A model generated the notes under the pieces. It saw only the letters and a list, made by a program, of their open reading frames with translations, did not search any database and was not told the DNA's origin. Positions 7,645 through 64,000 of a stretch of 64,000 nucleotides of DNA are shown here, in pieces; position 1 is the first letter of the stretch; every line of letters begins with the position of its first letter. The stretch spans positions 186,001-250,000 of the forward strand of contig NZ_JAMTCS010000005.1 in the NCBI RefSeq assembly GCF_024171955.1. Direction: 5' to 3'. This DNA is from Promicromonospora thailandica (lineage in GTDB: Bacteria > Actinomycetota > Actinomycetes > Actinomycetales > Cellulomonadaceae). The position numbers and the translations under genes were made by a program.

Positions 7645-7693
7645 CCTGAACGCCACGGTCCGGCCGTCGGCCGGTGGTCGCGACAGCGCAGCC

Positions 7694-7724
7694 CGGCGCG
7701 GGGAGGAAGATCCTCCCCGCGCCG
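7694..7724. terminator. Strong hairpin terminator between convergent genes
   Basis: Two perfect 14-nt arms (CGGCGCGGGGAGGA at 7694-7707 and its complement at 7711-7724) are separated by a 3-nt loop AGA. It lies between the end of the 7327 gene (+) and the stop of the TspO-like gene (-). As is common in high-GC actinobacteria, there is no long T-tract. Confidence 0.7.
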
Positions 7725-7728
7725 CGGG

Positions 7729-47111: not shown

Positions 47112-47187
47112 GCGCCTGTAGCTCAGTGGATAGAGCACCGCTCTCCTAAAGCGGGTGTCGGCAGTTCGAGTCTGCCCAGGCGCACCA
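47112..47187 (+). tRNA. tRNA-Arg (anticodon CCT), left edge of the mobile element
   Basis: Acceptor GCGCCTG pairs with CAGGCGC, the D-arm is GCTC...GAGC, the anticodon stem CCGCT/AGCGG encloses loop CTCCTAA (anticodon CCT), and the T-arm is GGCAG-TTCGAGT-CTGCC; discriminator A at 47184 and CCA encoded at 47185-47187. The serine recombinase gene ends inside it on the opposite strand. GC content drops right after its 3' end, so it is the likely integration target. Confidence 0.95.
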
Positions 47188-48898
47188 AATCAGTGACTTT
47201 CAAACTTCCACCCCCTGCAACAGGGGTGGCAAGTTCCCACCGAAGCCCCCCGGTAGCGCCCAACGCTCCGGGGGTATTCGCGTTGGCTTCGTTGTCGGCG
47301 ATGTTGTCCAGGACCTCCGCCATGGACGGTGCGCCCTGCCCGTTCTTCTCCTCAATCACTCGGCCGACGTCGAGGACGTTGTCGGCAAGGAGCGTGGCGA
47401 ACGGTTCGGCGTACTCGCCTTGGATGCTGGCCTCGTCGATGTAGAGGTGGGTGAAGAACGCCTGGTTGAAGAGTCGGCGAAGGCGGGGCTCAGCCTCGAC
47501 GTACGCGGCGTAGCAATCACGGGCTAGATCGAGTGCGCGGGCGAGGTTCGCGTTGATCACGTTGAGTGTCGTCGCCGCAGCGTTCAGTCTTGCCTCGATG
47601 GCGGTGAGCTGGTCGGTGATGCGCTGTTGCTCACCGGCGATTAGGTCCATCGGCACTGCGCCCGTGTAGATCGCGTCCAGCAACTTCTTGCGCTGGTTGT
47701 TGAGCTTGATCTTCTCTGCCGCTAGGTGCCTCTGCTCGTCCTCCGCCTCTTTGCGGTGTGCTGCGATCTCAAGCTTCAACCCTGCCTCGATCGCGTCTCG
47801 AAGCTCGGGGGCTAGACGCACGGTGGCCCAGTAGTCCTCGACCAACTCTTCGAGCTTTGTCACAAGCATGGCCTTGCGGGTACAGGAGGTCCGCTTCTGA
47901 TGCCTCCCAAGGCACACGAAGTACGGATAGATCGTTCCAGATGGGTTCTTGGCGTTCGTGATGATCAGGCGACTGCCGCAGCTCCCGCAGAACACGCTCG
48001 ACTTCAGATAGTGGTTGTGCTCGCGTTGCTTCTCTCCGGCCGCGTGCGAGGCAAGCACATCTTGAACCTTCTGCCAGGTGATCGAGTCGATGAGTGGCGT
48101 GTGATGGCCAGGGTAGAGGACACCCTGATAGGTGACTTCGCCCTTGTAGTAGGGGTTCGTGAGGATGCCGTGCAGCCCGTTGGGACCGATCGCCCGGGAG
48201 GGCAACTTTGGGGTTCGCCTGGTGGTCAGCCCTCTGGCTTCAAGCTCGTTCGTCATAGAACGGAGCGTCCACTCGTCGGTGGCGAAAGCGGTGAAGGCCC
48301 AGCTGATCAGTTCACCCCGCTCGCGATCGACGATCACGGTGCGTACCTCACGCCCATCGCTGGTTCGCTCCGACACGTTGATGTACCCCAGCGGTGCCCT
48401 GCCGGGCGTGCCGCCCGACATGGCCTTCTGGCTCATCCCCTTGTGGACCTCAGTCGCAAGGTTGCGTGAGTAAAACTCTGCAATCGAGGACATGATGCCG
48501 TGCAGCAACATGCCGGAAGGCGTCTCATCGATGTTCTCAGTGGCGGAGACCAGCTTTGCGCCAGCCTTCGTGATCGCCATCGTAATTCCGACGTCATCCA
48601 CCCGGTTCCTCGCGAGGCGATCCACCTTGTGGACAAGCACGTAGTCCACCGGGTTCACGGTGAGGTAGGCCAGCATCCGCTTGAGGTCGGGGCGGTCGGC
48701 AGATTTGGCTGACTCGCCGGCGTCTACGAACTCCTCGATGATCACCGCCCCTAGGCTCTCAGCCTTTCGTCGGTTAGCCTCGCGCTGTGCGGGGATGGAG
48801 AAGCCCTCCACCTGGCCGCCCTTCTCCGCCTGCTCCTTCGTCGATACGCGAAGGTAGGAGACTCCCGTCTTCATGGTCTGGGTCGCGTCGTCGGCCAT
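47123..48898 (-). CDS. Large serine recombinase (integrase) reading into the tRNA gene
   Basis: This is 591 residues from ATG 48898 (GGGGAGGAGGG upstream). The resolvase domain has VSYLRVSTKEQ (catalytic Ser19), VDRLARNRVD and SEFYSRNL-like SIAEFYSRNLATEV. The recombinase domain carries SRAIGPNGLHGILTNPYYKGEVTY. The zinc ribbon is CGSCGSRLIIT...YFVCLGRHQKRTSC, and a coiled-coil lies at about 400-480. The last 18 or so residues (RLGRLELPTPALGERCSIH) are encoded by the antisense strand of tRNA-Arg, so integration supplies the stop codon. It drives integration and, with a directionality factor, excision. Coupled to the pseudo-ImmA gene upstream. Confidence 0.93.
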   Translation of the reverse strand: MADDATQTMKTGVSYLRVSTKEQAEKGGQVEGFSIPAQREANRRKAESLGAVIIEEFVDAGESAKSADRPDLKRMLAYLTVNPVDYVLVHKVDRLARNRVDDVGITMAITKAGAKLVSATENIDETPSGMLLHGIMSSIAEFYSRNLATEVHKGMSQKAMSGGTPGRAPLGYINVSERTSDGREVRTVIVDRERGELISWAFTAFATDEWTLRSMTNELEARGLTTRRTPKLPSRAIGPNGLHGILTNPYYKGEVTYQGVLYPGHHTPLIDSITWQKVQDVLASHAAGEKQREHNHYLKSSVFCGSCGSRLIITNAKNPSGTIYPYFVCLGRHQKRTSCTRKAMLVTKLEELVEDYWATVRLAPELRDAIEAGLKLEIAAHRKEAEDEQRHLAAEKIKLNNQRKKLLDAIYTGAVPMDLIAGEQQRITDQLTAIEARLNAAATTLNVINANLARALDLARDCYAAYVEAEPRLRRLFNQAFFTHLYIDEASIQGEYAEPFATLLADNVLDVGRVIEEKNGQGAPSMAEVLDNIADNEANANTPGALGATGGLRWELATPVAGGGSLKVTDLVRLGRLELPTPALGERCSIH

Positions 48899-49407
48899 CA
48901 CAGCCCTCCTCCCCTTGATGCACATGCACCATGACTCGCGGCCGGATTCCCAGCCGTCTGGTCCTGCTCGATGTGGTCTGCCTCCATGGCAACGTTCGCG
49001 AAGTGGCTCGCCAGGGCGTCCCACTCTGGTTCTCCAAGTTCGCTGCGCTTCTTACGCAGCGGGTGATCCACGATTCGCTTGAGATGCCAGAGCACCGTGA
49101 AGGTCTTCACGTGAGCTGGATCCTCCTCGCGCAAGTGGATATGCCAGCGGTGATTCGCCCAGTAGGTGATTCCCTCGGCGGGCAGACGGGCAACTTGCAC
49201 CACCACGATGCTCGGAATGAGTACTGAGATGCGGGCAGGGAGCTTGTGGATCGCTCCTGCCAAGGCTTCACGCAGCAGGTGCGCCTGCCCCGAGGCGATG
49301 CGGCGCATCTCGGCGGCCGAGGCCGTTCCGGAGTTCCCGAGGTTCCGGAGCGTTGTCAGGAGACCGGTTGGCGAGATAGGGACGGAGCTTTCATTTGTAG
49401 TGATCAC
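48898..49407 (-). CDS. ImmA/IrrE-like protein with degenerate metalloprotease motif
   Basis: This is 169 residues from GTG 49407 (AAGGAGGA upstream). RWHIHLREEDPAHVKTFTVLWHLKRIVDHP aligns position by position with the ImmA/IrrE core FTLAHELGHILLHP: FT, L, I and HP are kept, but HExxH is replaced by WHLKR. EWDALASHFANVAMEA then matches the ExxAxxFAxxLLMP helix. Zinc binding looks lost. It lies between the XRE repressor and the integrase, the same place as immA in ICEBs1-type elements. It probably acts as a non-catalytic partner of the repressor. The family call is by motif and context. Confidence 0.6.
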   Translation of the reverse strand: MITTNESSVPISPTGLLTTLRNLGNSGTASAAEMRRIASGQAHLLREALAGAIHKLPARISVLIPSIVVVQVARLPAEGITYWANHRWHIHLREEDPAHVKTFTVLWHLKRIVDHPLRKKRSELGEPEWDALASHFANVAMEADHIEQDQTAGNPAASHGACASRGGGL

Positions 49408-49435
49408 GTTGTTATTCCTCCTTCCCCGCCCCTAG

Positions 49436-49834: not shown

Positions 49835-49867
49835 TGTTCACTAAACTCCTTTATCTGCTTATTTTGC

Positions 49868-49879
49868 CTATCGTCCCAT
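49868..49879 (-). other. Minigene leader ATG-GGA-CGA-TAG
   Basis: On the minus strand, AAAGGAGG is followed 4 nt later by ATG GGA CGA TAG, 34 bp before the XRE start, which has its own AAAGGAG. The very good Shine-Dalgarno with a three-codon reading frame suggests a translated leader that modulates XRE translation, or a remnant. Only the sequence is seen. Confidence 0.4.
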
Positions 49880-49890
49880 TTTACCTCCTT

Positions 49891-49907
49891 TGCTGAGGGA
49901 AGTCAGC
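49891..49907. promoter_or_regulatory. Element operator TGCTGA-N5-GTCAGC, site 1 (XRE gene)
   Basis: TGCTGAGGGAAGTCAGC contains the dyad GCTGA-N6-TCAGC. It lies 57 bp upstream of the XRE start in the AT-rich gap 49835-49963, next to the minigene Shine-Dalgarno. It fits autoregulation. Confidence 0.68.
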
Positions 49908-49963
49908 GGTTGTTGATGATTCCGCAACGCTTTCTTTTCTCCCGTGGAGAACACTGGTCGTCG

Positions 49964-51016
49964 CTATTTGTTGAACACGTACCAGCTCTGGCCGATCTGA
50001 ACGATGTCCCAGGTTTCTCGTGCCATAGCCTCAATGCGGGTCGAGTCCAGCTGGACGTACCCGTTGATTCCTAGGCGGTCTTCGAGCTCCGAGACGGCCC
50101 GCCGCCAATGTCTGATGTCGGTCAGGTCGATGAGCAGTTCGTCCATGCCGGGGTATGTGCCGATGTAGAAGGCGCGGAACCGATCCAGCAGGTCAGAGGC
50201 CCGGGAGTCGGTGTCCGGGAGCGTCAGGAAGGCGCGGAAAGCGTCGCCATGTTCGCGAATGCCCTCGGCAACTTGTGGATGTTCCTCCCGATGCGGGGCC
50301 TCTGCGGGCGGTGATGCATCCGCGTGCGCCACAAGATATTGCTGCAGGCGCACGGCCCAGGTGTGGAGATCGGGCGAGCGCCAGCTGCGCTCTACGAGCC
50401 GCCGACATTCGTCGAGGGCAGCGGGATCAGTCTCACCCGTGTCAGCGAAGCGCCGGATAGCAGCGTCGGGCGGGAGCAGCGGTCCGAGCATGGTCGCGAT
50501 GGCTTGGGCGTCTTCCTGGGATATGGGTTCGCCACGCTCGTCGGCTTCTGCAAACGCGATGCGGAGGTAGGCGCGGACCTGGTCCAGTGGTGTCCCGCCG
50601 ATGGGCACCTCCTCCGCTGGTGGTGGGCCGGGTTCGGGTGCGTCGTCGGACGGCAGGCTGGTGATGTAGCGGTCAAAGTGAGCGATCCACTCCACGATCT
50701 CGGCGTCCCTGGTGCTCGTGTAGATGCTCATCAGCTCGGTGCCGATCATCGGCTTGTCGACGCGGCCGGTGATGGCGAACCGATGCAGGGCGCCGCTCTG
50801 CGGGTCGGGGAGCTCGTTGGCGAGGGCACGAGCTAAGGTGCGCGCGCCCCATTCAGGCACGGGGTTCTCTGTTCCCTCGACCTCACTGATGGCGTCGTAG
50901 ATGACGTCGACGAGTGCGTCGTCCTGGGAGACAGCGCCGGTGAGATCAATCTCGCCGGGCCAGAGGCGTTCCTGTTCGGGGACGTCGTCATCCGGGTTAT
51001 GTGGCGGTTGTTCCAT
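49964..51016 (-). CDS. Hypothetical ICE protein with internal sequence repeats
   Basis: This is 350 residues; ATG 51016 is chosen because AAAGGAGGA lies 7 nt upstream, whereas the ATG at 51022 directly abuts it. The protein is acidic. Two ~60-residue units can be aligned: ARTLARALANELPDPQSGAL-HRFAITGRVD...EIVEWIAHFDRYI and AQAIATMLGPLLPPDAAI-RRFADTGETD...LHTWAVRLQQYL. A weaker third unit is near DAFRAFLTLPDTDSRASDLL. The family is not recognised. It overlaps the replication-relaxation gene by 20 bp and ends the transfer operon. Confidence 0.78.
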   Translation of the reverse strand: MEQPPHNPDDDVPEQERLWPGEIDLTGAVSQDDALVDVIYDAISEVEGTENPVPEWGARTLARALANELPDPQSGALHRFAITGRVDKPMIGTELMSIYTSTRDAEIVEWIAHFDRYITSLPSDDAPEPGPPPAEEVPIGGTPLDQVRAYLRIAFAEADERGEPISQEDAQAIATMLGPLLPPDAAIRRFADTGETDPAALDECRRLVERSWRSPDLHTWAVRLQQYLVAHADASPPAEAPHREEHPQVAEGIREHGDAFRAFLTLPDTDSRASDLLDRFRAFYIGTYPGMDELLIDLTDIRHWRRAVSELEDRLGINGYVQLDSTRIEAMARETWDIVQIGQSWYVFNK

Positions 51017-51872
51017 AGGCATTCCTCCTTTCGGTGGTTACTGGTTGGGTCATCGGGACAGGGTGGTCGGGCGGGTCCGGGGTATCGACCGCGACCACCT
51101 CCTGGAATCGGTCGACGGTCGTGATCCGGAACAGATCCGTCTGAACTGCGGGGTCGGCCGAGAGAGCGGCCTCTAGTGCCTTCTTCCGCCGGTCGTCTGG
51201 CACGACCCACAGGACGGCCGGGAACACGCCGTGCCGATCCTGGTAAGCGCCGGTGGCGGCGTAGCGCTGGTAGACCTTCGCTTTGTTGACAACTTCTGGC
51301 GGATGCTCGGTAGAAAGGTCTGCCTCCACGAACCAGTGCGATTCGTACTCCGCGGTGGCGGTAATGGCGCTCAAGTCAGGCTTGAGCCACTCCCGCGTCC
51401 CGTGCGGGCCGACGAACGAACGCCAGCAGTCCGGTTCGGTCTCCAGATTGAGGAGCTCGATGGCCTCAGTCTCTGCCAGCTCGTGGAGCTGGATGGCGAG
51501 CTCGGCCTTGAGCAGCGTGTGCTTGACGAAGGCGCCCGACGGCTCGACGTACCGGCGACGCTTGGTCTCGCCGTGCATCCGGCGCAGGAGTCGTTCACCA
51601 GTGGCACCGAGCTGCCAGGTAATACCGGTGGAGCCTGCCCGTACCCCGCCGATGCGTCGCATCAGGCGAGCGACCAGGCCATGGTCCTCGAGGCGGGTCA
51701 GGACACGCATCGTCGCGCCGGACGCTGCGCCGAGCGTGGCGTGGCCACGAGCGAAGTGCAGCCGGCGGATATGGGCGGTCGTGAGGAGCCGATGGATGCG
51801 CAGTGACTCCAGCACCGCCAGGTCGCGCTCGGACAGGCGCTCCAGGAGCGCGGAGATGTCCTGGGGGCTCAT
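50997..51872 (-). CDS. Replication-relaxation family protein
   Basis: This is 291 residues from ATG 51872 (CTAGGAGGTACCTC upstream). An N-terminal winged HTH (RDLAVLESLRIHRLLTTAHIRRLHF) is followed by FVKHTLLKAELAIQLHELAE and a nuclease-like or relaxase-accessory half (LKPDLSAITATAEYESHWFVEADLSTEH). This is the pattern of Pfam replication-relaxation proteins of actinobacterial plasmids and ICEs, which cooperate with DNA processing at the origin. It is coupled to its neighbours by overlap. Confidence 0.85.
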   Translation of the reverse strand: MSPQDISALLERLSERDLAVLESLRIHRLLTTAHIRRLHFARGHATLGAASGATMRVLTRLEDHGLVARLMRRIGGVRAGSTGITWQLGATGERLLRRMHGETKRRRYVEPSGAFVKHTLLKAELAIQLHELAETEAIELLNLETEPDCWRSFVGPHGTREWLKPDLSAITATAEYESHWFVEADLSTEHPPEVVNKAKVYQRYAATGAYQDRHGVFPAVLWVVPDDRRKKALEAALSADPAVQTDLFRITTVDRFQEVVAVDTPDPPDHPVPMTQPVTTERRNAYGTTAT

Positions 51873-52075
51873 GAGGTACCTCCTAGCTGGCCTTCGTTGA
51901 CGAGGTTGCAGGAGCTGCGTCTGGCTCGGGGACCCCCGGAACGGGGGTCAGTCCCATCCCAGAAAGGTCCGGACAGGGCCAGTGAGCTGGGACGACCCGA
52001 ACGGGCGGACGTCGTGAACCGAGGGGCGAACCTACGGGCGAGCAGACCGATACGGAGACGACGCGGGAACCTCAT
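51869..52075 (-). CDS. 68-residue Arg-rich protein coupled on both sides
   Basis: This small ORF (MRFPRRLRIGLLARRFAPRF...) overlaps the TraG/VirD4-like gene stop at its start (ATGA) and the replication-relaxation gene start at its end (ATGA). The two overlaps argue that it is translated. It is basic and Ser/Gly-rich with no recognised domain, and may only serve to couple translation, or may bind nucleic acid. Confidence 0.55.
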   Translation of the reverse strand: MRFPRRLRIGLLARRFAPRFTTSARSGRPSSLALSGPFWDGTDPRSGGPRARRSSCNLVNEGQLGGTS

Positions 52076-54261
52076 GGCTGCCTCCGCTTCCTGCCGACCT
52101 GCTCAGCAACAACGGGCGGTGATGCAGCCACCGAGCGTCGCTTCGGTCGGTCTGGCTTAGCGGGCTCTGCGGTCGGCTCGGCTTCCGGCGATGTAGCGCC
52201 GTAGCCAGCACGGCTGGCTGCCCGCACCTCGTCGGAGTCGGTGATGGCGGGTGGAGGCGGCAGCGTCTTGATCAGCGCCCAGCCAGACGGGTGGCCGAGC
52301 GCCACGAGGTTGGCGTAGGCGTGGTATTTCGGGAGCGCCATGAAGTCCTCGGGCGTGAGGTTGCTGGCGAGCTTGGCGGTGTCGCGCGCGTCCTCATATT
52401 CCGTTGAGAACACGATCTTGGAGCGAGCATTCATGTCCACGGCTGAGCGCAAGGCGGGCGGAAACTGGCTGCGGAACTGGGCGGCCAGGAACCACCCCAC
52501 CCCGAGCGAGCGGGAGACGGCCAGGGCGTCCGCCAGCGAGGTTGGGAGGTGGAGAAAGCGCGGCGCCTCGTCCACGACGACCATGCCAGGGCGTTTGGCG
52601 GGGTCCTTCTCCTCGGCGCGCTCCTGGGTGGCCTGCCAGATCTCAGCGACGGCCAGACTGCCGAGCAGGCCCGCGGTGCCAGTACCCACCAAGCCCTCGT
52701 TGAGCGGCATCAGGACGATCTTGTCCTCGCGAAAGAGATTGCGGAGACGGAACTTCCCCGAGCGCTGGTCGAGCATGCGCACCACTGCAGGTCGAAGCAG
52801 GAGCTGCCTCAATTTGTTGAGCGGTGCGGCGATGGCGGCGGCCTGGGACCTCGGGGACTGCGCCTCGTACCAGGCCCAGAAACCACCGAGGGCAAGGTCG
52901 TCCTGGACTTGGGCGGTCTGTTGCCGACGGAAGCGCGAATCGGTGAGTAGCCGGGGTAGATCGATGAGGGTGGCTGATCGATCAGGCGTGCTGGCACGGG
53001 CCAAAGTGCGCAAGGCGGCGCTGAAAATATCTGCCGTCCGAGGGCCCCAGCCATCCGAGAACACAGCTTCGAAGACGGCCAGGATGCCGTCGACGACAAC
53101 GTCCGGGTCCCGGCCGGCGACGTCGAGGGGATTGAAGCCGACCGTCGGGTCCGCGGCGTCCAGGATGACGACGTCTTTGATCCGCTCCTTTGGCATGCGA
53201 GCGAGGATGTCGTCGACGAGCTGCTTCTTCGGGTCGAGGACTGCGACTGGTCGTCCGGCCTTGATGTCCGCCAGGATTAGATGCAGCAGGGTGTTCGTCT
53301 TACCTGATCCGCTCGGCCCGTACGCCACGGCATGGAACGTCTGGTCCGCTGGCGATATGCCGACCTGGCGGTCGTCGCCGGGCGCGGCGCTTGTGGCGAA
53401 GACACGCGGGCTCGTGTGCACGGCGGCGGCTGGGCGTAGCGGCTTGGGGTGTGCGGGCGGTAGTCCCGGCAGATCGTCTCCGCCGATTGGCCAGCCCAGA
53501 AGCCCGATCAGCTCCGTGACGCCTAGGTGTAGCGGCCAGCGCCACGGGAGGCGTACGTCGTTGAGTTGCTTGGCAGGTTGGCGTACCAGGTCGAGCCGGA
53601 CGCCGGGGCTTTGGGCGGTCGAGAGAGCGCCGAGCAGGTTCATGATGAGCCGTCGACGCCGGCCACGGTCCGGGCTAGCCGCACCGATGCGGATCGTGAC
53701 GACAAACCCCGCTTGGGAGAGCCGTTCGCGCAGTCGCAGCTTCGTCTCGGGAGCGGCGGGACGGTTCCCGCCAGTGAGGGCCTGGGCGAGCGTCATACCG
53801 GGCTCTACGGCACCTCGCGGGACGGGCCGGGGCGCGTGGTGTGGTCCGAGAACCACCTGGAGGACGGCGACCTCCCCGAGCTTGAGCTTGGCGGCCATGG
53901 CTGAGAGAAGCGACCGTGTGGTGGCCTCGGGAGCATCGGTTCGCAGTGGCAAACCACCCGGCTTGAGTCGGAGGCGGGCGGCCATCTCGACATCCGGTCG
54001 ACCATGCTGGCCGCCGCCCTTGAGCTTGGTGAGCAGGCTGCCGGGGATGAGGTCAGCGAGCAGGCGTCGCAGGCGGTGAACGTCTGTGGGGCGGCATCCG
54101 AGCAGGTGCTGCACACCGCTGCTGTCCGCCCGCAGTTCGAGCGCGACGCGAGGTGCGTCTCGTTCGGAAGCGATGCGGGTGAGGAACGCGCCGATCTGCG
54201 GGGGATCAAGTGGCCGCGGGAGATGGAGCTGAGAGAAGACGAACTCGGTCGGATTAGTCAT
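52072..54261 (-). CDS. TraG/VirD4-like conjugative coupling ATPase
   Basis: This is 729 residues. Walker A is HAVAYGPSGSGKTNTLLHL near residue 315; then VAVLDPKKQLVDDIL, DVVILDAADPTVGFNPLD, a Walker B MVVVDEAPRFLHLP near 580, and SRSLGVGWFLAAQFRSQFP (the TraG/HerA Q-motif region). It belongs to the TraG/TraM-recognition-type group of FtsK-HerA ATPases that pump or couple DNA to a type IV secretion channel. There is no N-terminal membrane helix, so it probably associates with a membrane partner. It is the main gene of the transfer operon. Confidence 0.88.
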   Translation of the reverse strand: MTNPTEFVFSQLHLPRPLDPPQIGAFLTRIASERDAPRVALELRADSSGVQHLLGCRPTDVHRLRRLLADLIPGSLLTKLKGGGQHGRPDVEMAARLRLKPGGLPLRTDAPEATTRSLLSAMAAKLKLGEVAVLQVVLGPHHAPRPVPRGAVEPGMTLAQALTGGNRPAAPETKLRLRERLSQAGFVVTIRIGAASPDRGRRRRLIMNLLGALSTAQSPGVRLDLVRQPAKQLNDVRLPWRWPLHLGVTELIGLLGWPIGGDDLPGLPPAHPKPLRPAAAVHTSPRVFATSAAPGDDRQVGISPADQTFHAVAYGPSGSGKTNTLLHLILADIKAGRPVAVLDPKKQLVDDILARMPKERIKDVVILDAADPTVGFNPLDVAGRDPDVVVDGILAVFEAVFSDGWGPRTADIFSAALRTLARASTPDRSATLIDLPRLLTDSRFRRQQTAQVQDDLALGGFWAWYEAQSPRSQAAAIAAPLNKLRQLLLRPAVVRMLDQRSGKFRLRNLFREDKIVLMPLNEGLVGTGTAGLLGSLAVAEIWQATQERAEEKDPAKRPGMVVVDEAPRFLHLPTSLADALAVSRSLGVGWFLAAQFRSQFPPALRSAVDMNARSKIVFSTEYEDARDTAKLASNLTPEDFMALPKYHAYANLVALGHPSGWALIKTLPPPPAITDSDEVRAASRAGYGATSPEAEPTAEPAKPDRPKRRSVAASPPVVAEQVGRKRRQP

Positions 54262-54481
54262 TGCGAGGTGCCCTCCTCGACTCGTTGGCTCTCGCGCCAG
54301 TGCCTCGGGCCTTGCGGGCGGCCTGTTCAGCTTGGGCTTCCCGCTCAGCTTCGGCCCGTGCCAGTTCGATGAGCGCTCTGGAGAGCTTGCGAAGGTCCGG
54401 GGGATTGCGGCGGACGCCTCGTACTCTGAGTTGACGCTCGATGCGCCTCCTGTTGATCTGGTTCTTCTTTTTGGACGACAA
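54254..54481 (-). CDS. Small basic protein, first gene of the transfer operon
   Basis: This is 75 residues from TTG 54481, which sits 7 nt behind AAAGGAGG; no ATG fits this Shine-Dalgarno. The sequence is KKKNQINRRRIERQLRVRGVRRNPPDLRKLSRALIELARAEAERE. It is highly basic with a C-terminal Ala/Glu/Arg helix. No known domain; a DNA-binding or accessory role is possible. It overlaps the TraG/VirD4-like gene by 8 bp. Confidence 0.7.
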   Translation of the reverse strand: MSSKKKNQINRRRIERQLRVRGVRRNPPDLRKLSRALIELARAEAEREAQAEQAARKARGTGARANESRRAPRND

Positions 54482-54507
54482 AGACCACCTCCTTTCTTTG
54501 GCGGGGG

Positions 54508-54524
54508 CGCTGACTGTAATCAGC
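54508..54524. promoter_or_regulatory. Element operator TGCTGA-N5-GTCAGC, site 2 (transfer operon)
   Basis: On the minus strand GCTGATTACAGTCAGC follows the promoter and precedes the Shine-Dalgarno of the 54481 gene, followed by GCCCCC as at site 3. Binding would block transcription just after the start site, so it would silence the transfer operon. Confidence 0.75.
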
Positions 54525-54537
54525 ATCCACTTACCTC

Positions 54538-54567
54538 TACTTATTCTGATTTTCTGTTTAGAGTCAA
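54538..54567 (-). promoter_or_regulatory. Promoter of the transfer operon
   Basis: On the minus strand TTGACT (54562-54567), an 18-bp spacer and TAAGTA (54538-54543) form a clear -35/-10 pair in the AT-rich gap 54482-54623. The predicted start lies about 7 bp upstream of operator site 2. Confidence 0.68.
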
Positions 54568-54623
54568 TACACGTTGTCTATTCCACATCGCTTGACCTCT
54601 GAATGCGCAGCGCAGCGTAGGCG

Positions 54624-54866
54624 CTAGTACTTTGACCGCTGCCAACGAATGATCGCGGCGGTGACCCACGTCCCGGCGATGAGGACGGCGGCGCCAGCTA
54701 GCCAGTGTGTGATTGGCCGGAGCCAGGCGACGGCGAGATTGAGCACGATCGCCGTGCCAAGCAGCAGCAGGCTGGCGCGGAAGATCCAGGCGAAGGGATC
54801 GTTCGGTAGCGAGCTCTTGTCCTCTCCCACGAGTGCCTCACCGGGCCTTCTGGTCGTGGCTGGCAT
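54624..54866 (-). CDS. Small two-helix membrane protein
   Basis: This is 80 residues with a cytoplasmic start (MPATTRRPGEALVGEDKS), two membrane helices (FAWIFRASLLLLGTAIVLNLAV and HWLAGAAVLIAGTWVTAAII) and a short basic end. It overlaps the MT-A70 gene by 29 bp, so it is cotranscribed and coupled. No family is recognised. Its place between a methyltransferase and the transfer genes suggests an ICE accessory membrane protein. Confidence 0.75.
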   Translation of the reverse strand: MPATTRRPGEALVGEDKSSLPNDPFAWIFRASLLLLGTAIVLNLAVAWLRPITHWLAGAAVLIAGTWVTAAIIRWQRSKY

Positions 54867-55425
54867 CGCTTGGCACGGGGTAGCCCGGCAGGCTGATGTC
54901 GGCGTCGACCTCGTTGCCCCATACGAACCACTCCCGATTGCTCGGCGGCCGACGTCGGGCGAACAGCTCGAGATAGGGCCCGTCCGAGATGCGCTCGACG
55001 ATGGCGAACTGCTCCTCGGGCTTGTGGCTGTGGCCCTGGACGGGTGCGTTTATCCAGGTTGGCTGGGAACGGAAGTTCACCGGTGCCTTGCCTCGCGTAG
55101 CAAACAACAGATGCTCGGTGGCATGGCGCAGGTAGTTGCCGAGGCCGAGTCGGAACTTGATCCACGTGATGGGTGCGCGCACCGTAAAGCCCCAGGCTTC
55201 GGCGACGTCGTAACCGTCGCGCAGGGTGCCGTTGGTGACCCAGAGCCAGAGGTGAGCATTCTCCTCGGCCAGGTCCCGGATGGGCATTGCCTTGATCCGC
55301 TCCAGACTCATCAGCGGGTAGTGCTGCGACGCTCCTCGTGCGCCCCGCTGGTCGGTTTGCCATGGCGGATCTGCCAGGATGGTGCGGAACTTCGCCGGTA
55401 CTGGGTTGATGCTGTTGGTTGTCAT
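54838..55425 (-). CDS. MT-A70-type adenine DNA/RNA methyltransferase
   Basis: This is 195 residues from ATG 55425. FRTILADPPWQTDQRG carries the MT-A70 DPPW catalytic motif at about residues 18-22. ENAHLWLWVTNGTLRDGYDVAEAWGFTVRAPITWIK and HLLFATRGKAP complete the family core. Such enzymes make N6-methyladenine and are common on phages and ICEs, where they may protect from restriction. No cognate endonuclease is adjacent, so it is an orphan methyltransferase. Confidence 0.9.
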   Translation of the reverse strand: MTTNSINPVPAKFRTILADPPWQTDQRGARGASQHYPLMSLERIKAMPIRDLAEENAHLWLWVTNGTLRDGYDVAEAWGFTVRAPITWIKFRLGLGNYLRHATEHLLFATRGKAPVNFRSQPTWINAPVQGHSHKPEEQFAIVERISDGPYLELFARRRPPSNREWFVWGNEVDADISLPGYPVPSDASHDQKAR

Positions 55426-55512
55426 GTAGGTGGTTGCCTCCTCTCTGTCCCGGATTCGCTGCGCGGCTCGGGAGCTGGGGCTAGTTATGAACGATGTGGA
55501 GCTGGATCGAAA

Positions 55513-55560
55513 CCAGCGGTTCGGGCGAACTGTCGAGCGAAGATTCGCCCGAACCGCTGG
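55513..55560. terminator. Perfect 17-bp hairpin after the vWA operon
   Basis: CCAGCGGTTCGGGCGAA (55513-55529) and its exact complement (55544-55560) flank a 14-nt loop, in the gap 55426-55628. The vWA operon (minus strand) ends just upstream, and the MT-A70 gene begins just downstream, so the hairpin most likely terminates the former. Confidence 0.72.
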
Positions 55561-55628
55561 GACCTTTCCCCGGAGACACAGCCGCCTCGTGGCTACGGCG
55601 GGCACCGGAGAATCCGTTGTGGAATCTG

Positions 55629-56336
55629 CTACAGGGGCTCGGCGACGTGGCTGCCGGGGCGGTTTGCGATCAGCCCGGCGAAGATCGCCCGCGCCACGAC
55701 GCCTGGCCGCGATTCGTACGTGACCACCGTCGTGGTGACGCCCTCGTTCAGGACGCCCGCGGGGGGCCGGCCGCCCAGCACGACGGCGTGCACCGTTCCG
55801 GGGAAGGCCGCCAGGTCGGACAACACCGCGCCGGGGTCGCTGTCCGTGAGGAAGAAGTCGGAGAGCACGACGAGGGTTGCCTCGTGCTCCGGGTGACGTT
55901 CCGTCAGCGCCCTCGCCCGTGTCAGGCTGGGGCCAAGATCGCTCGTCCCTGCACCATCCGCAGGCGGATGCAGGCCAACACGAAGGCCGACGAGGCCTTG
56001 CCGTGTCAGAGGTGTCGGTGCGACCTCGCCACTTGAGGGGGTGTCGAAGTGGATGATCGCACCCAGCTCACGAGGCGAGCCCCTGTGTGCGACGACCGAG
56101 AACGCATGCTCCACCTCGGCATACCGGTTCGAGAGCGCATCGGTGCCCCGGGGACCCATGACCGAACCGGAGTTGTCGAAGAGGGCGATGAGCAGTGTGG
56201 GCACGGCGGCCGGCCTTCCGGGATCACCGAGCCTGTACGACGGGCCGGCCGGCCCCGCCGACCTGCTCGGCATCGGGGTACCGAGCAGGCGGCTAGGCAG
56301 CAGGCCGCTCGAAAGCAGCGTGGGCCGGGTGCTCAT
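55629..56336 (-). CDS. vWA-domain protein (third gene of vWA operon)
   Basis: This 235-residue cytoplasmic protein has a complete MIDAS: LLIALFDNSGSVMG (DxSxS, near residue 52), GTSDLGPSLTRA (Thr loop) and TLVVLSDFFLTDSDPG (Asp). It ends with VTTTVVTYESRPGVVARAIFAGLIANR. No other domain is seen, so it likely binds a protein ligand in a metal-dependent way. It overlaps the membrane protein gene by 4 bp and is cotranscribed with it. Confidence 0.85.
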   Translation of the reverse strand: MSTRPTLLSSGLLPSRLLGTPMPSRSAGPAGPSYRLGDPGRPAAVPTLLIALFDNSGSVMGPRGTDALSNRYAEVEHAFSVVAHRGSPRELGAIIHFDTPSSGEVAPTPLTRQGLVGLRVGLHPPADGAGTSDLGPSLTRARALTERHPEHEATLVVLSDFFLTDSDPGAVLSDLAAFPGTVHAVVLGGRPPAGVLNEGVTTTVVTYESRPGVVARAIFAGLIANRPGSHVAEPL

Positions 56337-57433
56337 GCGCTCACGCTCCGACGAGACCGCCGCCCGATCACCCCGCTCTGCTCACCGGCCGCAAACCCGT
56401 GCCCGAACACCTGCGGGTTTCGCCGCTGCGCCTGCCAGGACAAGGAGTCCACTCGCTTGCCGGCGGCCCCGGCCCGATACGTGCTCTCCTCGCGGATCGA
56501 GCGCGCCATCTCCTCCGAGGCGGCCTTGTCTCGGCCGGCGGCCGAGCGGGTGAGCTCGAGGTAGTGCGTCTCGGCCCCTCGAACCCGCTTGGCAAGCGTG
56601 CCGAGCAGGTCCGCCACCTCATCCGCACTGGCGTACCCCAGTAGCCCTGATGCGATCGCCGTTGCGAGCGCGAACAGCCCGAAGGTGAGGCCGGTGAGGC
56701 CACCCTCGATACCCGCGCGGAGCGCGAAGATCCCAAGGGCGACCAGCAACGCCACCAGCAGCGACAGCCCACCCATCAGCTTGGTGATGCCGAGACCGTC
56801 GCCCCCTGGGACGAACAGACGCCGGTAGCGCTGCTCCTCCTTGGTGAGGCTGTCCGGATCACGCTGCCGTGTCCGCGCCATGCGGATGTCCTTGAGCTCG
56901 GACCCCACCAGGCCAGCGCAGGCTGCTGCCAGACCGGCCGCCAGCGCCTGGCCGAAGGCAACGTACGGAACGTCGCCGTTGATGATCGCCGCCGACCAGA
57001 CACCCGCGGTATCCCCCAGGACCAGGATCGGCCAGCAGATCCAGTACCGCAGTTTCCCGCCCGACTCGCGCCGCACGTACGAGCCGAGCACCTGCGTCGC
57101 CCGCTGATACTCCGCATGCGCCTCACGAACCTCGGCCTCGCGCTGGGTCAGGAGGAAGTCGATGCCAGCCACCTGGCGGTCCAGACCGCGTGCCTCCACA
57201 CCGTAGGGGCGCGCCTCGTCTTCGCCTTCAGCTCGCCAGAGAAGCTCCTGCTCTTCCGCGAGGGCGTGGTACTCCTGCTCGACGTAGCTCGTGCCGACGT
57301 TCGAGGGCCGCGGGTGCGCACCCACCTCGTCCAGCCGAGGCAGCGAGATCGCCTCGACCTGCTCCGTCCAGGCGTCCATGGAGCTCGCCGGTCGGACGTT
57401 GCGCAGCCCGGCGAACCGGCCCAGGCGCCTCAT
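56333..57433 (-). CDS. Membrane protein between two vWA genes
   Basis: This is 366 residues. A long N-terminal helical cytoplasmic part (YVEQEYHALAEEQELLWRAEG, coiled-coil-like) is followed by four membrane helices in two pairs (about 130-175 and 215-262: YWICWPILVLGDTAGVWSAA; GGLSLLVALLVALGIFAL). A C-terminal helical cytoplasmic tail ends QVFGHGFAAGEQSG. No family is recognised. It overlaps the genes on both sides by 4 bp (start and stop), so it is an integral part of the operon and could be the membrane scaffold for the two vWA proteins. Confidence 0.78.
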   Translation of the reverse strand: MRRLGRFAGLRNVRPASSMDAWTEQVEAISLPRLDEVGAHPRPSNVGTSYVEQEYHALAEEQELLWRAEGEDEARPYGVEARGLDRQVAGIDFLLTQREAEVREAHAEYQRATQVLGSYVRRESGGKLRYWICWPILVLGDTAGVWSAAIINGDVPYVAFGQALAAGLAAACAGLVGSELKDIRMARTRQRDPDSLTKEEQRYRRLFVPGGDGLGITKLMGGLSLLVALLVALGIFALRAGIEGGLTGLTFGLFALATAIASGLLGYASADEVADLLGTLAKRVRGAETHYLELTRSAAGRDKAASEEMARSIREESTYRAGAAGKRVDSLSWQAQRRNPQVFGHGFAAGEQSGVIGRRSRRSVSA

Positions 57434-58398
57434 CGGTTCACCCCGGCGTACTCGGTGACCGAGAGGCAGTTCTCGGCACCGGTCTTGGCGCAGAGGGCGT
57501 CGTAGAGCGAGACCAGCCCCTCCACGACCTCCGAGGACGGTGGTGATCCAGCCACTCGTCCCAGGCCGGCGACGGCCACCGAGGCACCCGCCAGCTCCGG
57601 CACGCTCGTCTTCTCGGCCAGCGACGTCGCTTCCTGTTCGCTCAGCGCCTTCTTACCGAGCTTGACCCCGCCGACGTTCTGGAAGCCGTCCGTGAAGATG
57701 TACAGGTGGAGGTGGGCGTCGCCGTCGAGCTGCCGGGCCCACTCGGCAGCCAGCCGGTACTGGGCGGTGATGTCGCTACCGCCGCCGGGCAGCGCCGCGA
57801 CTGCTGGCTCGTAGGCTGCCCGGATCTCGGCCATGGTCTCCTCGACGATCTGCGGCACGCGCTTGAGCTTGGCGTTGTCGGTGGCACCGTCCAGCCGCAG
57901 GGGCTGGTCGAAGATGGTGGCCGTGGCGGCGCTGGACGCGGAGAACACCTGCACCCGCAGGTGCCCCGAGCAGATCGCCGTCCGACGGACGATCCCCTCG
58001 ACAGCGGCCATGCGCTCGGCCGCAATCTCCGACGAGGCACTCGACCCCGTGCCGTCGATCTCGACCGAGGAGGCCGGAGCTGCAACGGGGTCACACGAAG
58101 CGAGGATCTCCTGGTTCTCGGCCAGCTCGCCGTGGGTCGAGCCCACCCCGCACGCCGCGAGTGCGGCGACCAGGAGCAGTGCGATCGGCGCAGCCACGAC
58201 CGCCGGCTTCTGACTACGCTTGCGCGCGATCCGAGCCTGACGGCGCTCCTTGACTTCGTTGGTGGCGGGGACGACCGAGGAGTTGGTCGGAAGCACCGAG
58301 CGCAGGTCCCGCGCCAAGTGGCGGAGCTCCTTCTCCTGCCGGGCGCGCTGACGATCCTCGATGCTGTGGATGATGCGTGTGTAGCGGTTCCTAGACAT
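57430..58398 (-). CDS. Membrane-anchored vWA-domain protein (first gene of vWA operon)
   Basis: This is 322 residues from ATG 58398 (AAGGAGG upstream). A basic cytoplasmic N-terminus (about 70 residues) precedes a membrane segment with a lipobox-like end (PIALLLVAALAACGVGS), so most of the protein is outside. The vWA domain has SSVEIDGTGSSAS (MIDAS DxTxS variant), GGGSDITAQYRLA (Thr) and LHLYIFTDGFQNVGG (Asp). The gene is transcribed divergently from the STAND-like gene. The three genes 58398-55629 form a tight operon. Confidence 0.84.
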   Translation of the reverse strand: MSRNRYTRIIHSIEDRQRARQEKELRHLARDLRSVLPTNSSVVPATNEVKERRQARIARKRSQKPAVVAAPIALLLVAALAACGVGSTHGELAENQEILASCDPVAAPASSVEIDGTGSSASSEIAAERMAAVEGIVRRTAICSGHLRVQVFSASSAATATIFDQPLRLDGATDNAKLKRVPQIVEETMAEIRAAYEPAVAALPGGGSDITAQYRLAAEWARQLDGDAHLHLYIFTDGFQNVGGVKLGKKALSEQEATSLAEKTSVPELAGASVAVAGLGRVAGSPPSSEVVEGLVSLYDALCAKTGAENCLSVTEYAGVNR

Positions 58399-58433
58399 GA
58401 GAGCCTCCTTCACGGAATCGAGGCGGCTGATGC

Positions 58434-58446
58434 CAGACGACGTCTG
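58434..58446. promoter_or_regulatory. CAGACG-A-CGTCTG dyad between divergent operons
   Basis: A perfect 6-1-6 palindrome lies in the 147-bp gap between the vWA operon and the STAND-like gene. It may be an operator for either promoter. No dedicated regulator is identified. Confidence 0.4.
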
Positions 58447-58545
58447 CCACCGCTCGAACGAACGTGCAGGTCAAGCGTCGGCTCCGGGGAGTCTCCCGAG
58501 TGGAACAGGCTTGGCAGATTCTTAGAAAGAGCGCACGATTTTGGA

Positions 58546-60519
58546 ATGAGCAACCCGCAGCCAGGCCGAGACGACGTTGGCGACCTCGACGCTCGGCTCC
58601 TTGCCGAGCTGGCCTTCTTGCGCAGGAACCCGTTCGGTGGCGGCCCGAAGGTTGACGAACGGCTCGCCGCTACGCAGACACTCTCCGCGCTCGCCGAGCA
58701 GCTCTACGGGCCAGCGACCAAGCTCTCCGATCGCGACCAACAGCAACGAGCACTTGTCAGGAGTGCCGCCAAACGTATGGAGGGCACCGGTGGCGAGGCA
58801 CTTCTTCGCCTCCTCGGTTTGCACGCGGAGACCGTGAATATAAGAAATGTGGGGCCTCGAAGTGAACTCGCTGGTCCCTATGCCCACCCAGACCCGCACT
58901 TTGGGAAAACGTTCGGGCGCATCGAGTACTGGAAACCGTTTCTCCAACTTGCCGTGATAGCGATTCAACAGACAGCGCAGGCGGTTCCTCGCCGCAGAGA
59001 CGGCGACAGCGAACCTCTTCGTGATCTCGCCCTGCCGATTGTCAACCGCGAATGGACCGATATCATCGTCGAATTGGTCAAGTCGTCCGAGGCTGGACAC
59101 CAGGCCCATGCGCTTTACGGTCTACCCGGCAGCGGTCGGTACACGCTATGCGACCAGGCCCTCGCTCGGGTCACGCCCCAGAACCGTCACATCGTCCGCG
59201 TGGACGAACCACTTACCTACCACCGTGACTTGCTCGACATGCTCGAAACATACGGTATCCACGCAGATTCGTGGAGCCTTGCCGCCTGCGAGCGCGAGTT
59301 CCGAAGGCTGGTCGAAAACGCCCCTAGTTCGCTGGGTGGTGTGATCCTGCACGGCGGAAAGACGGCCGACCAGTTCGCGCACTTGCTACCGCGGCGGCCA
59401 AGAACGCACCTACTCCTTACTACAGAGCGTCCCTCTAAATCTCGCATGGACCACGTCTATGAGCTGGATGCGCCATCATTCATGCCCGAGGAAGCCGTTA
59501 CACTCTTGGCTTTCGGTCATCAGAATGCCGAGCCGCGAGACTTGTCGCTATTGGCTGAACAGCTCTACCGCCACGTGGGGCTCATCGCGGTCGCGGCTCG
59601 ATCCCGAATTACGGTAGCCACGTTGATCAGACGGCTCCGTCGCAACCGCACCGCGACAGTACTTCAGCTTGCCTCACTGGGCGGCATGGATCTTCGCCGA
59701 TACGCGCGGCAGGTAATCCGCGATATTGGCGACGATGCGGATGCGCTCTTTGCTCTTGATGTCGCGTTGTGGCTTACGGGTAACGACAGTTGGAACCTCT
59801 ACCATGCGGTGGGCTTCCTCTTGCCCGGTCGCGTCTCGCCCGCGCGTGTCAATGTTGCCCTCGATCGGTTTAATAACGCCTGTGGCTACGTAAGCTATTG
59901 GGGAAGCAGTCCGCTTGTCCCCATCCTCCGTCAGCTACGTGCCGAGCAAATGACGCCGCTGCTCCACGCTCTGGCAAGCCTCGAGGGCCACGAACGCATT
60001 GGACTCAACGGTGATCGTTGGCCAGTTGCGCTGTCCGTTTGGCGACGCTCAGGAGAAACGCCCCCAGTCCTGAACATGGGTACATACGAAACATCCGTCA
60101 CGGTTTGCCATGCTACTGGTGGGGGGCACGATTTCGCAGCTCTCTTCCATGGGCCAGATGGGCGACCACACGCTCAGCTCTACGAATGGGCACACCTGGG
60201 GGAACGGACCCTGGAGGTGTATGAGGATGGGGAGCAACTACCGCAAAGCATCCTGCTCGATCCGGATAACGATACGAGGTGGCCCGAAGTCACGCGCTAC
60301 ATGCTGGGCTTGTTGACGGGCCCGGACCTGTCACGACTGTCCGAACTTGTAGGCGATATACGAGTCGACTACTATGCAGAGCCGGACTACGAGGATTTGC
60401 ACCCTGAAATCGAACTGGAATGGATTGACCTCGACGACATCACGCCAGAAATGGCCACGATGTGGGATTCGAGACCTGATGAATCAAGTGATCCGCATTC
60501 GGGCGAGATTTTTGGGTAG
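58546..60519 (+). CDS. STAND/NB-ARC-like protein with degenerate P-loop
   Basis: This is 657 residues from ATG 58546. Residues 175-330 look like a STAND NTPase: QAHALYGLPGSGRYTLCDQALA (P-loop with GKT changed to GRY), GVILHGGKTADQF in the Walker B place without the Asp, HLLLTTERPSKSRMDHVYELDAPSFMPEEAVTLLAFGHQ (sensor and GxP-like region). The C-terminal ~200 residues are acidic with IELEWIDLDDITPEM. The gene is clearly less GC-rich than the transfer genes. The frame is intact, so it is a functional gene, perhaps a nucleotide-binding sensor that no longer hydrolyses ATP; a defence role is inferred. Confidence 0.68.
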   Translation: MSNPQPGRDDVGDLDARLLAELAFLRRNPFGGGPKVDERLAATQTLSALAEQLYGPATKLSDRDQQQRALVRSAAKRMEGTGGEALLRLLGLHAETVNIRNVGPRSELAGPYAHPDPHFGKTFGRIEYWKPFLQLAVIAIQQTAQAVPRRRDGDSEPLRDLALPIVNREWTDIIVELVKSSEAGHQAHALYGLPGSGRYTLCDQALARVTPQNRHIVRVDEPLTYHRDLLDMLETYGIHADSWSLAACEREFRRLVENAPSSLGGVILHGGKTADQFAHLLPRRPRTHLLLTTERPSKSRMDHVYELDAPSFMPEEAVTLLAFGHQNAEPRDLSLLAEQLYRHVGLIAVAARSRITVATLIRRLRRNRTATVLQLASLGGMDLRRYARQVIRDIGDDADALFALDVALWLTGNDSWNLYHAVGFLLPGRVSPARVNVALDRFNNACGYVSYWGSSPLVPILRQLRAEQMTPLLHALASLEGHERIGLNGDRWPVALSVWRRSGETPPVLNMGTYETSVTVCHATGGGHDFAALFHGPDGRPHAQLYEWAHLGERTLEVYEDGEQLPQSILLDPDNDTRWPEVTRYMLGLLTGPDLSRLSELVGDIRVDYYAEPDYEDLHPEIELEWIDLDDITPEMATMWDSRPDESSDPHSGEIFG

Positions 60520-61316: not shown

Positions 61317-61646
61317 CTACTCGCCAGAGGTCTTGCCTCGGCGGGTTGCCGGACGTGAAGGAGGAGTCTCCTTCGCCTCGTCCGTTGCGGTGTTGCCGCC
61401 GAAGATCGCCGTGATGGCGTCGCGTCGGGTCTGAGCTTCGCGCTCAATGCCGGCACGGATGGCCTCGGCCTTCTCGAGCGTGGCGGGATCGGACTTGGTC
61501 TTCTCGATCCAGTGCTCCAGGGCCAGGCGGATCTCCTCAGTGGCAGTGCGACCCGTGATCTGGGCAACCACGTCCAACTGAGCGCGCAGCTCGTCGGTGA
61601 TCCGGACTGCCAGCGTGCGGAGCTGGCTTCCTGACGGCTCGCTCAT
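61317..61646 (-). CDS. Ribbon-helix-helix DNA-binding protein
   Basis: This is 109 residues from ATG 61646 (GAGGAGG upstream). LRTLAVRITDELRAQLDVVAQITGRTATEEIRLALEHWIEK at residues 8-48 is an RHH (CopG/Arc-type) domain: the strand (TLAVRIT) and two helices. The helical tail has KAEAIRAGIEREAQTRRDAITAIFGG. It is likely a small regulator or an antitoxin-like repressor, or a relaxosome accessory protein. No toxin gene is adjacent on the same transcript. Confidence 0.85.
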   Translation of the reverse strand: MSEPSGSQLRTLAVRITDELRAQLDVVAQITGRTATEEIRLALEHWIEKTKSDPATLEKAEAIRAGIEREAQTRRDAITAIFGGNTATDEAKETPPSRPATRRGKTSGE

Positions 61647-61751
61647 AGCGAACCACCTCCTCGGTGAATTGCGGCCGACGAACAGGGGACTGTTCATCTC
61701 GGAAGCCGCAGGGCACCGACGAAGCGATCGAGGCCTGTAAGCAACTGGAGG

Positions 61752-61919: not shown

Positions 61920-63062
61920 TCAGGAGCGCGCGCCAGGTTCAGGCTCCGCTGACACTTGGCCGATCGTCTCCAGCACGAGGCTGGGCACGACGCGGACGGC
62001 ATCCTTCAGGAGCCGTTCTATGGCTACCGCATGACGGCTCGTGTCCACGTTGATGTGAGATGCCCACTCGGCAGGTTGGTAGCGGGCGAGCATCGACAGG
62101 GCATAGAGGACCGTCCACCAAGCCATCAGCGGATGAAGGCTGCGACTGTCGTCCGGTGCGACCGATGGAAAGAACTGCATAGACCCTATGTAGCGTCGCG
62201 TCAGCGACTCGAGAAGCGCAGCCCTTTCCGCGACTGTGCCTGCGTGACCGCCAGGCAGTTGCCAATGCATCACGAGCTCGCCCCAGCCGTCATTATGGCG
62301 ACTGAAGTCGGGAGCTGCGGCCGGCTCCCGGTCAACGCGTACGAAACTGTGGTAGCCCTGCGCCGCTGGGAACGCTTTGAGGTAGTTGTCCAAGGCCTGG
62401 CGCCCATTGTCAGCGTCCATGACCCACGAGGGAAAGCCAACGACAGGCACGGACGCCAAAGGATGGTTTTCGGGGTACAGATTGCGGTATTCGATCCACA
62501 AGGGCGTCCGCCGTGAGGCGTCCTCGCCGAGGAGCGGAGAGTGCTGATTCTCGGGTAGGAGGTCCCAGAGCACATTGAGGGGGATCGACGCCTTACCCCA
62601 GACGGGGGAGTCAAGGAGTTCCGACAGTCGGACGTAACTACCGCTTCCGCCAGGTTTGCCGGTCTCGATCCTGACGTCAGAGAGCCCGCCAGCGAGCTCT
62701 TTCGCGCTTATGCCGTGGCTACTCAGCTTCCAACCATCCCCAGGCCCGATGCTGGACGAAGCGGCAGTGATCGCACGCCCGGCCTGGCTGAGTCCATAGA
62801 AGACGAGGAGTGGCTGTGTAGCTGGACCAACCGTCGCCGCCGCGCGGAACATCTGCTCGGCTTGCTCCAGGGCGAAGACGTATGTCGCCCGCCGCTCGTC
62901 GACTACGACAGCCGGAGCTGGTGGGTTCCACCTCGTGGCTCGTAGTTGCTCCCAGACGCCATCGGTGTTGTTGTCGGCGTGCACATGCTGACCATGTGCT
63001 CGTTCAGGTGCGCTGTCAATCACGCTCCGGGCTCGATCCCCAATGTGGTCGGTAAGGTCCAT
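61920..63062 (-). CDS. YaaC-like protein
   Basis: This is 380 residues from ATG 63062. ATQPLLVFYGLSQAGRAITAASS near residue 83 and SSHGISAKEL match the YaaC family, whose hallmark is FYxLSxxAKA followed by HGL. The rest is helical with SLHPLMAWWTVLYALSMLARYQPAEWA, also a family feature. Function unknown; there are no membrane or catalytic motifs. It lies 60 bp downstream of the Ntn-hydrolase-like gene, on the same strand, so the pair is probably cotranscribed. Confidence 0.75.
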   Translation of the reverse strand: MDLTDHIGDRARSVIDSAPERAHGQHVHADNNTDGVWEQLRATRWNPPAPAVVVDERRATYVFALEQAEQMFRAAATVGPATQPLLVFYGLSQAGRAITAASSSIGPGDGWKLSSHGISAKELAGGLSDVRIETGKPGGSGSYVRLSELLDSPVWGKASIPLNVLWDLLPENQHSPLLGEDASRRTPLWIEYRNLYPENHPLASVPVVGFPSWVMDADNGRQALDNYLKAFPAAQGYHSFVRVDREPAAAPDFSRHNDGWGELVMHWQLPGGHAGTVAERAALLESLTRRYIGSMQFFPSVAPDDSRSLHPLMAWWTVLYALSMLARYQPAEWASHINVDTSRHAVAIERLLKDAVRVVPSLVLETIGQVSAEPEPGARS

Positions 63063-63122
63063 CTGTCAATGGCCGTGTTGGACCCCTGGCTCACGGGGAC
63101 TGGCCGCCAAGAGTCCGGCTCT

Positions 63123-63977
63123 CTAGAAGTTCCAGCCCTGCGGCTTGGGCCCATACACGACCTCTTGTCCGTGATCTTCAAGGGCGATCCGCACGAACTC
63201 GTCGGGCGTCGATGCGGGGACTGTAACCGACTCGTATGGATGTTCGTGGCGGAACAACCGTCCCGCGTTGGCGAGCGGATGGAGTAGTCCGATTGCGCCG
63301 CGGGTTCGTCCCCGGCCAGCGAAGACGATCAGTTCGGACACTGTGGGGTCTCCACCAGGTGGCACCTCCAGTGTGAGCTTGAGGTTGCCGTGCTCGAACC
63401 GTGCGCTCGTCACCTGCATCTCCGGCATCAGCGCCATGCGGTCGGGAGGAAACAGAAACCCCTCCGTTGGGGTACCCGACGCACGAATCGTGTATCCGCC
63501 CACGGTCGATACGGAGTCGAACGATGTCAGTCCTTGCTCCGATGACATGAGCAAGAACGGAACCTCTTGGCCCTCGCCCCACTGGTGGTACTTCTCCTGA
63601 AACTCACTGTAGGCGTCCCCGTCCCCACACCAGGCTCGTATACCGCCCGTGCGGGGCTCGACGTTCCCGTCCCGGACCATCCACAGCCGCGCCGGGTCCA
63701 GTGCAGCGATGACGAACTCCGCATGACGTTCGAGCCGGAGGCGCTCGAGCATCTCGTCGACGGTGACGTCGCGGACCTCGGTCAATAGACGGATGGTCCC
63801 GTGTGGATCGTTCCCGGCAACCCCGACGGCGAGGTCCGCACGAAGGATGACGATCTTGGCCAGGGCGTTTTCGTAGGTGTGTCTTGTCTTGGTCACGTCG
63901 CCGGCCCATGTGATCTTCGTGTCGGAAACCATCGTGATCCGGTCTCCGTCGTGGATGTCCGCGACTACAAGGGTCAT
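63123..63977 (-). CDS. Proteasome/HslV-like Ntn-hydrolase candidate
   Basis: This is 284 residues from ATG 63977 (a TTG at 63986 is less likely, since the ATG puts Thr at position 2). After Met removal the protein starts TLVVADIHDGDRITMVSDTKIT and continues LAKIVILRADLAVGVAGND, which parallels the HslV start (TTIVSV..., D17, K33, then GFAGG). Thr1, Asp18 and Lys40 are at matching places with a seven-residue loop insertion. The C-terminal half is not recognised. This would make it a threonine hydrolase, but no ATPase partner is visible. The assignment is by pattern only. Confidence 0.55.
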   Translation of the reverse strand: MTLVVADIHDGDRITMVSDTKITWAGDVTKTRHTYENALAKIVILRADLAVGVAGNDPHGTIRLLTEVRDVTVDEMLERLRLERHAEFVIAALDPARLWMVRDGNVEPRTGGIRAWCGDGDAYSEFQEKYHQWGEGQEVPFLLMSSEQGLTSFDSVSTVGGYTIRASGTPTEGFLFPPDRMALMPEMQVTSARFEHGNLKLTLEVPPGGDPTVSELIVFAGRGRTRGAIGLLHPLANAGRLFRHEHPYESVTVPASTPDEFVRIALEDHGQEVVYGPKPQGWNF

Positions 63978-64000
63978 GCCTACCAACCCTACTCGCGGCC

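Follow-up and report, generated by a model that had tools for sequence, protein, structure and literature searches.

A putative proteasome-like threonine hydrolase gene beside a YaaC gene on apparent mobile DNA of Promicromonospora thailandica

Introduction

Fuchs, Alva and Lupas (2021) described 22 new families of proteasome homologues, including DAH, AAH and WPH, in which Thr1 or Ser1, Asp17, Lys33 and Gly47 are conserved; propeptides are restricted to the proteasome beta subunit and HslV, and informative gene context was not found for any of the new families (PMC8665760). One of these, the Distant Actinobacterial proteasome Homolog (DAH), was named for its occurrence in actinobacteria; it is rare (77 sequences at nr90) and highly divergent (68 at nr70), is made without a propeptide, carries at its C-terminus an additional domain whose fold is unknown, and has been reported from phages too (PMC8665760).

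Here we analyse a gene from a 64,000-nucleotide stretch of the Promicromonospora thailandica genome, referred to below as the window, whose product can be set beside these proteins. Like the homologues of Fuchs and colleagues it has an N-terminal Thr or Ser, equivalents of Asp17, Lys33 and Gly47, a predicted proteasome-like core and no propeptide, and it is likewise rare and divergent; like DAH in particular it has an additional C-terminal region, the likeness to DAH being one of description only. With HslV (ClpQ) and the 20S beta subunit PrcB it shares the predicted core fold, the position of the nucleophile and the Lys33-to-Gly47 spacing, but it differs from both: it lacks a propeptide, neither HslU nor Mpa/ARC is encoded next to it as a partner, and the sequence similarity is at the level of chance; it is also about 110 residues longer than HslV, mostly at the C-terminal side. 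We consider it fairly likely that the gene encodes a stand-alone threonine hydrolase of the proteasome superfamily, with a predicted fold and catalysis, that travels on actinobacterial mobile DNA.

The gene pair and its genomic setting

Two adjacent genes encode the candidate N-terminal-nucleophile (Ntn) protein and a YaaC-like protein, and both reading frames lie where the first-pass annotation had placed them, on the same strand and 60 bp apart (Table 1). The locus is single-copy in the 5.38-Mb host genome. The Ntn gene starts with an ATG at window position 63977, and an in-frame TTG at 63986 would add three residues ahead of this Met; in all four Ntn proteins compared here, the window protein and its three homologues, homology starts at the ATG-encoded Met. 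No clear terminator was found in the gap between the two genes, and they are possibly co-transcribed across it. The gene for an RHH/RelB-antitoxin-like protein starts 222 bp downstream of YaaC and is probably separate from the pair.

Table 1. Features of the window and of related plasmid loci. Coordinates are window positions unless a locus label is given.
Feature	Coordinates	Strand	Basis
tRNA-Arg (CCT), apparent left boundary of the pair-carrying element	47112..47187	+	ARAGORN
Large serine recombinase, left end of element	47123..49024	-	Pfam Resolvase, Recombinase and zinc-ribbon
Replication-relaxation protein of element	50997..51872	-	PF13814, E 5.8e-44
T4SS coupling-protein-like ATPase (DNA transfer)	52072..54261	-	PF02534, E 8.9e-9
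RHH/RelB-antitoxin-like protein	61317..61697	-	NCBIfam NF048017, E 2e-5, below cut-off
YaaC-like protein (PF14175), 380 aa	61920..63062	-	Pfam
Intergenic gap, 60 bp, both genes on the same strand	63063..63122	-	
Proteasome/HslV-like N-terminal-nucleophile protein, 284 aa	63123..63977	-	ORF, three homologues, AlphaFold and Foldseek
284-287-aa protein, 9-10 bp upstream of YaaC, Streptomyces linear plasmids	L015 4128-4991; L083 3116-3970; L084 3134-3997		

The pair looks to be part of an integrative element that begins at a tRNA-Arg gene and carries genes for a recombinase, a replication-relaxation protein and a DNA-transfer ATPase, and most congeners differ in sequence after this tRNA-Arg. To locate its right end, the genome was searched for a second copy of the last 28 bp of the tRNA-Arg gene (3' end), and none was present at up to three mismatches. 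No AAA+ unfoldase gene is present among the window neighbours examined. A search of the host's own genome for PF00227 returned two genes, PrcB- and PrcA-like, on another contig; because the host already has PrcBA there, the Ntn gene is an extra gene.

Several other genes in and near the window merit mention. The apparent element (47112-60519) also holds several genes without assignment (55629-60519). About 3.7-7.3 kb past the right end of the window (L002 8669-12293) are genes for an asparagine-synthase-like protein and then a PCMT-type methyltransferase, which bear some resemblance to pieces of a cluster for lasso- or other peptide modification, and at L002 12993-16612 two adjacent N6/N4-type DNA methylase genes follow a 186-aa gene that has no match in Pfam, a possible restriction-modification or defence locus.

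Residue layout and predicted fold of the Ntn protein

The argument for a proteasome-like enzyme begins at the N-terminus. At the conserved ATG start the Met is followed by Thr in three of the four proteins and by Ser in the fourth, residue 2 being Thr in the window protein and two homologues and Ser in the Nocardioides protein, a change that may well be tolerable for a nucleophile. The reading of the motifs in the first-pass annotation (M-T2, SD19TK, K41-IVIL and G52-VAG55) was correct, and D19, K41, G52 and G55 (window numbering) are invariant in all four, so that D19 and K41 stand as the equivalents of the Asp17 and Lys33 of the proteasome-like (Ntn, clan PB) superfamily, and G55, within a GxxG loop at K41+14, as that of the oxyanion Gly47. 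The 14 residues from K41 to G55 equal the Lys33-to-Gly47 distance of proteasome beta subunits, and actinobacterial PrcB has the identical spacing. The distance from Thr to Asp is 16 residues in Rhodococcus, the exact proteasome value, 17 in the window and Nocardioides proteins, and 19 in Mycolicibacterium. Written as a pattern (Met followed by Thr or Ser, Asp 16-17 residues on, Lys, and G-x-x-G 11 residues after the Lys), this layout fits three of the four members, and the fourth carries two extra hairpin residues; the pattern matches 17 of 200,000 shuffled copies, a figure to be read with the fact that the loop ranges were chosen with the family in view. The predicted catalytic residues are Thr2, which would become Thr1 upon removal of the Met, together with Asp19, Lys41 and the oxyanion-loop Gly55.

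Searches by sequence and profile return little. The Ntn protein has no match in Pfam, NCBIfam, PADLOC or PHROGs, none of the four members matches the Pfam Proteasome family PF00227 at E<=10, and a sequence and profile search of the PDB gave nothing relevant. In HHalign comparisons with PrcB and HslV the probability is below 1% and the whole-domain comparison is at chance level, and the HMMER scores of the family against the same proteins fall among those of shuffles. Because sequence profiles give no above-chance link to PrcB or HslV, the assignment of the fold, in this superfamily an alpha-beta-beta-alpha sandwich core with H1-H4, relies on structure prediction. Two AlphaFold models, made with different query proteins, have pLDDT values of 53.5 and 58.6 and pTM values of 0.44 and 0.55; their alignments consist of three rows, and the region between about residues 130 and 210 is not reliable. 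For both of these low-confidence models all of the top 50 Foldseek matches in the PDB are 20S subunits or HslV/ClpQ, with probability 1.00, best E-values of 1.5e-4 and 7.4e-6, and TM-scores of 0.3-0.4, and the top matches among viral structures include phage HslV/proteasome-like proteins. In the well-modelled parts the secondary structure elements run S1-S2-S3-S4-H1-H2-S5..-H3-H4, which is the proteasome order. Of the original suggestion of a proteasome/HslV-like protein, then, the conservation of Thr/Ser2, Asp19 and Lys41 has held up and the fold agrees within low-confidence models, the support not coming from homology over the whole sequence; we regard the proteasome-like assignment of the modelled product as probable.

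Distribution of homologues

The Ntn gene is rare. Three homologues of the window protein were found, with 31-49% identity: one on the Rhodococcus qingshengii plasmid NZ_CP089607, the sole match by tblastn in 72,556 plasmids (33% over 98%), and those of Nocardioides aequoreus and Mycolicibacterium wolinskyi, found when 395 genomes of the class were searched with a profile. Searches of the Mycolicibacterium order (250 genomes), the Nocardioides order (198 genomes) and 149 close relatives added no further members, and tblastn with all four members found no relatives in 50,697 phage records; viral contigs contained relatives of neither the Ntn nor the YaaC protein. Pattern-based scans may miss divergent members, and the true number in the family is probably greater than four. 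Three hits of a phylum search with E about 5e-4 (L004-L006) were dismissed as chance, the first being a deacetylase-like ORF, the second having no related ORF, and the third being short and interrupted by a stop, and Propionibacteriales hits at E 0.005-0.5 were taken as chance also, those inspected being ABC transporters, a nitrate-reductase-type protein and a regulator.

The settings of the three homologues are diverse, and besides the Ntn family itself no shared ORFs link the four loci. The upstream neighbour in Rhodococcus is a 479-aa gene; the Mycolicibacterium gene comes after one for a DnaB helicase, with a DpdA-like gene in the same stretch; and a GNAT-like reading frame overlaps the Nocardioides gene, next to pglW/pglX (BREX/Pgl).

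On the N. aequoreus contig (NZ_JOJN01000023.1, L023) pglX is split between 99-1769 (-) and 5739-8222 (+). The first half, which covers 3-644 of the profile, comes after pglW on the plus strand; the second (profile 640-1104) is on the minus strand at the opposite side of pglW, an arrangement as expected after inversion of a pglW-pglX segment, and close to both break points there is a 9-bp inverted match, CCGAAGCGG. This is possibly a case of phase variation.

YaaC and the question of a conserved pairing

The identification of the second gene as YaaC-like proved sound, its product matching PF14175 with E 7.5e-37 and 127.8 bits against a cut-off of 27, and the motifs FYGLSQAGRA and HGI being invariant or nearly so in the 13 YaaC proteins compared. 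It is a clear member of the family and is 44-51% identical to YaaC proteins of Streptomyces linear plasmids over most of their length. Plasmid matches to YaaC number 19 records, 17 of them from Streptomyces, and the plasmid with the Ntn gene is not among them. The neighbours of these YaaC genes vary, and include CoiA/NERD nuclease genes, ABC three-component systems, helicases and an unrelated gene of about 287 aa. Our literature search did not find a paper describing a YaaC function. Carried repeatedly by linear plasmids of Streptomyces, and there in changing company, YaaC deserves systematic study.

Two further observations concern these plasmids. The 284-287-aa protein encoded just upstream of YaaC (Table 1) has no Pfam match, and its DFLL...LEVSS stretch resembles, by eye only, a PD-(D/E)XK nuclease motif. 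In two Streptomyces plasmids (L081 4100-8055 and L082 3971-8215) an ABC-3C three-gene system directly follows YaaC.

The first-pass annotation had proposed that the Ntn and YaaC genes form a paired enzyme/partner unit, and this proposal did not survive comparison of the loci. YaaC adjoins the Ntn gene in just one of the four Ntn loci, that of the window; tblastn and blastp found no YaaC near the other three Ntn genes, the Nocardioides contig ending about 0.8 kb past the gene, and the 19 plasmids that match YaaC all lack the Ntn gene. With co-occurrence lacking in the available data, we reject a conserved Ntn-YaaC system. Neither protein matches the PADLOC antiphage models, and a literature search for YaaC together with Ntn hydrolases or antiphage work found nothing relevant. 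The best reading is that YaaC came to adjoin the Ntn gene through local assembly of cargo.

Discussion

How novel the Ntn gene is depends on its relation to the families already named. That it belongs to a described family of proteasome homologues, most likely DAH, has in our estimation only a little short of an even chance: an actinobacterial, rare, divergent and propeptide-free protein with an extra C-terminal region fits the account of DAH in every respect, but the fit is to a description and not to a DAH sequence or profile, and DAH is reported from phages, yet the four members match nothing in the phage records. A coincidental resemblance to HslV in a protein of some other fold would agree with the want of a significant match to any known sequence family and with the low confidence of the AlphaFold models; we think it decidedly unlikely, given that models from two different queries match exclusively proteasome and HslV structures in their top 50 and that the nucleophile, Asp, Lys and Gly positions are conserved at proteasome spacing.

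The two genes might alternatively be a functional module, for instance a sensor and effector serving defence or the maintenance of the element, with YaaC exchanging its upstream enzyme partner from element to element. Such a swapped-partner pattern is conceivable, and agrees with the shared strand and short gap in the window, with the unrelated gene in the same orientation immediately upstream of three close Streptomyces relatives of YaaC, and with the CoiA-nuclease gene upstream or NERD gene downstream of others; but that tight linkage is confined to one close-knit YaaC clade, neighbours are otherwise unshared between loci, PADLOC gives no match, and the two families fail to co-occur at the other Ntn loci and the YaaC plasmids, and we judge the module unlikely. 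The fuller version, a conflict module that joins a new clade of element-borne proteasome-like hydrolase to a YaaC shared with alternative enzyme partners (possible nucleases on the Streptomyces plasmids), seems to us very improbable. As the pair is not found together elsewhere, we think it probable that the Ntn gene adds a new relative to a known enzyme superfamily and is not half of a new two-gene system.

For this stand-alone hydrolase we envisage that methionine aminopeptidase would strip Met1 and expose Thr1, making a propeptide unnecessary, and that Thr1, aided by the Asp17 and Lys33 equivalents, would attack an amide bond, with the oxyanion hole formed by the GxxG loop. The roughly 110 residues additional to HslV probably control assembly or the choice of substrate. 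As nothing nearby encodes a dedicated AAA+ unfoldase, the substrates would most likely be unfolded or specific peptides, which the enzyme would cleave, or ligate as connectase does, unaided by one. YaaC would be a separate and widely carried accessory gene that adjoins the Ntn gene in the window element only, perhaps sharing its transcript. At a guess, the Ntn gene could have a role in conflict between element and host or element and phage, a suggestion made because the gene rides on mobile DNA and, in Nocardioides, adjoins a BREX/Pgl locus.

For most of the proteasome homologues described in 2021, neither a function nor a genomic context is known. The present small clade, with members on a plasmid, within an apparent integrative element and next to a BREX/Pgl locus, provides a hint that some of these homologues are mobile accessory genes. 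Should the protein prove active, it would represent a small, unfoldase-free threonine hydrolase of the kind that yielded connectase.
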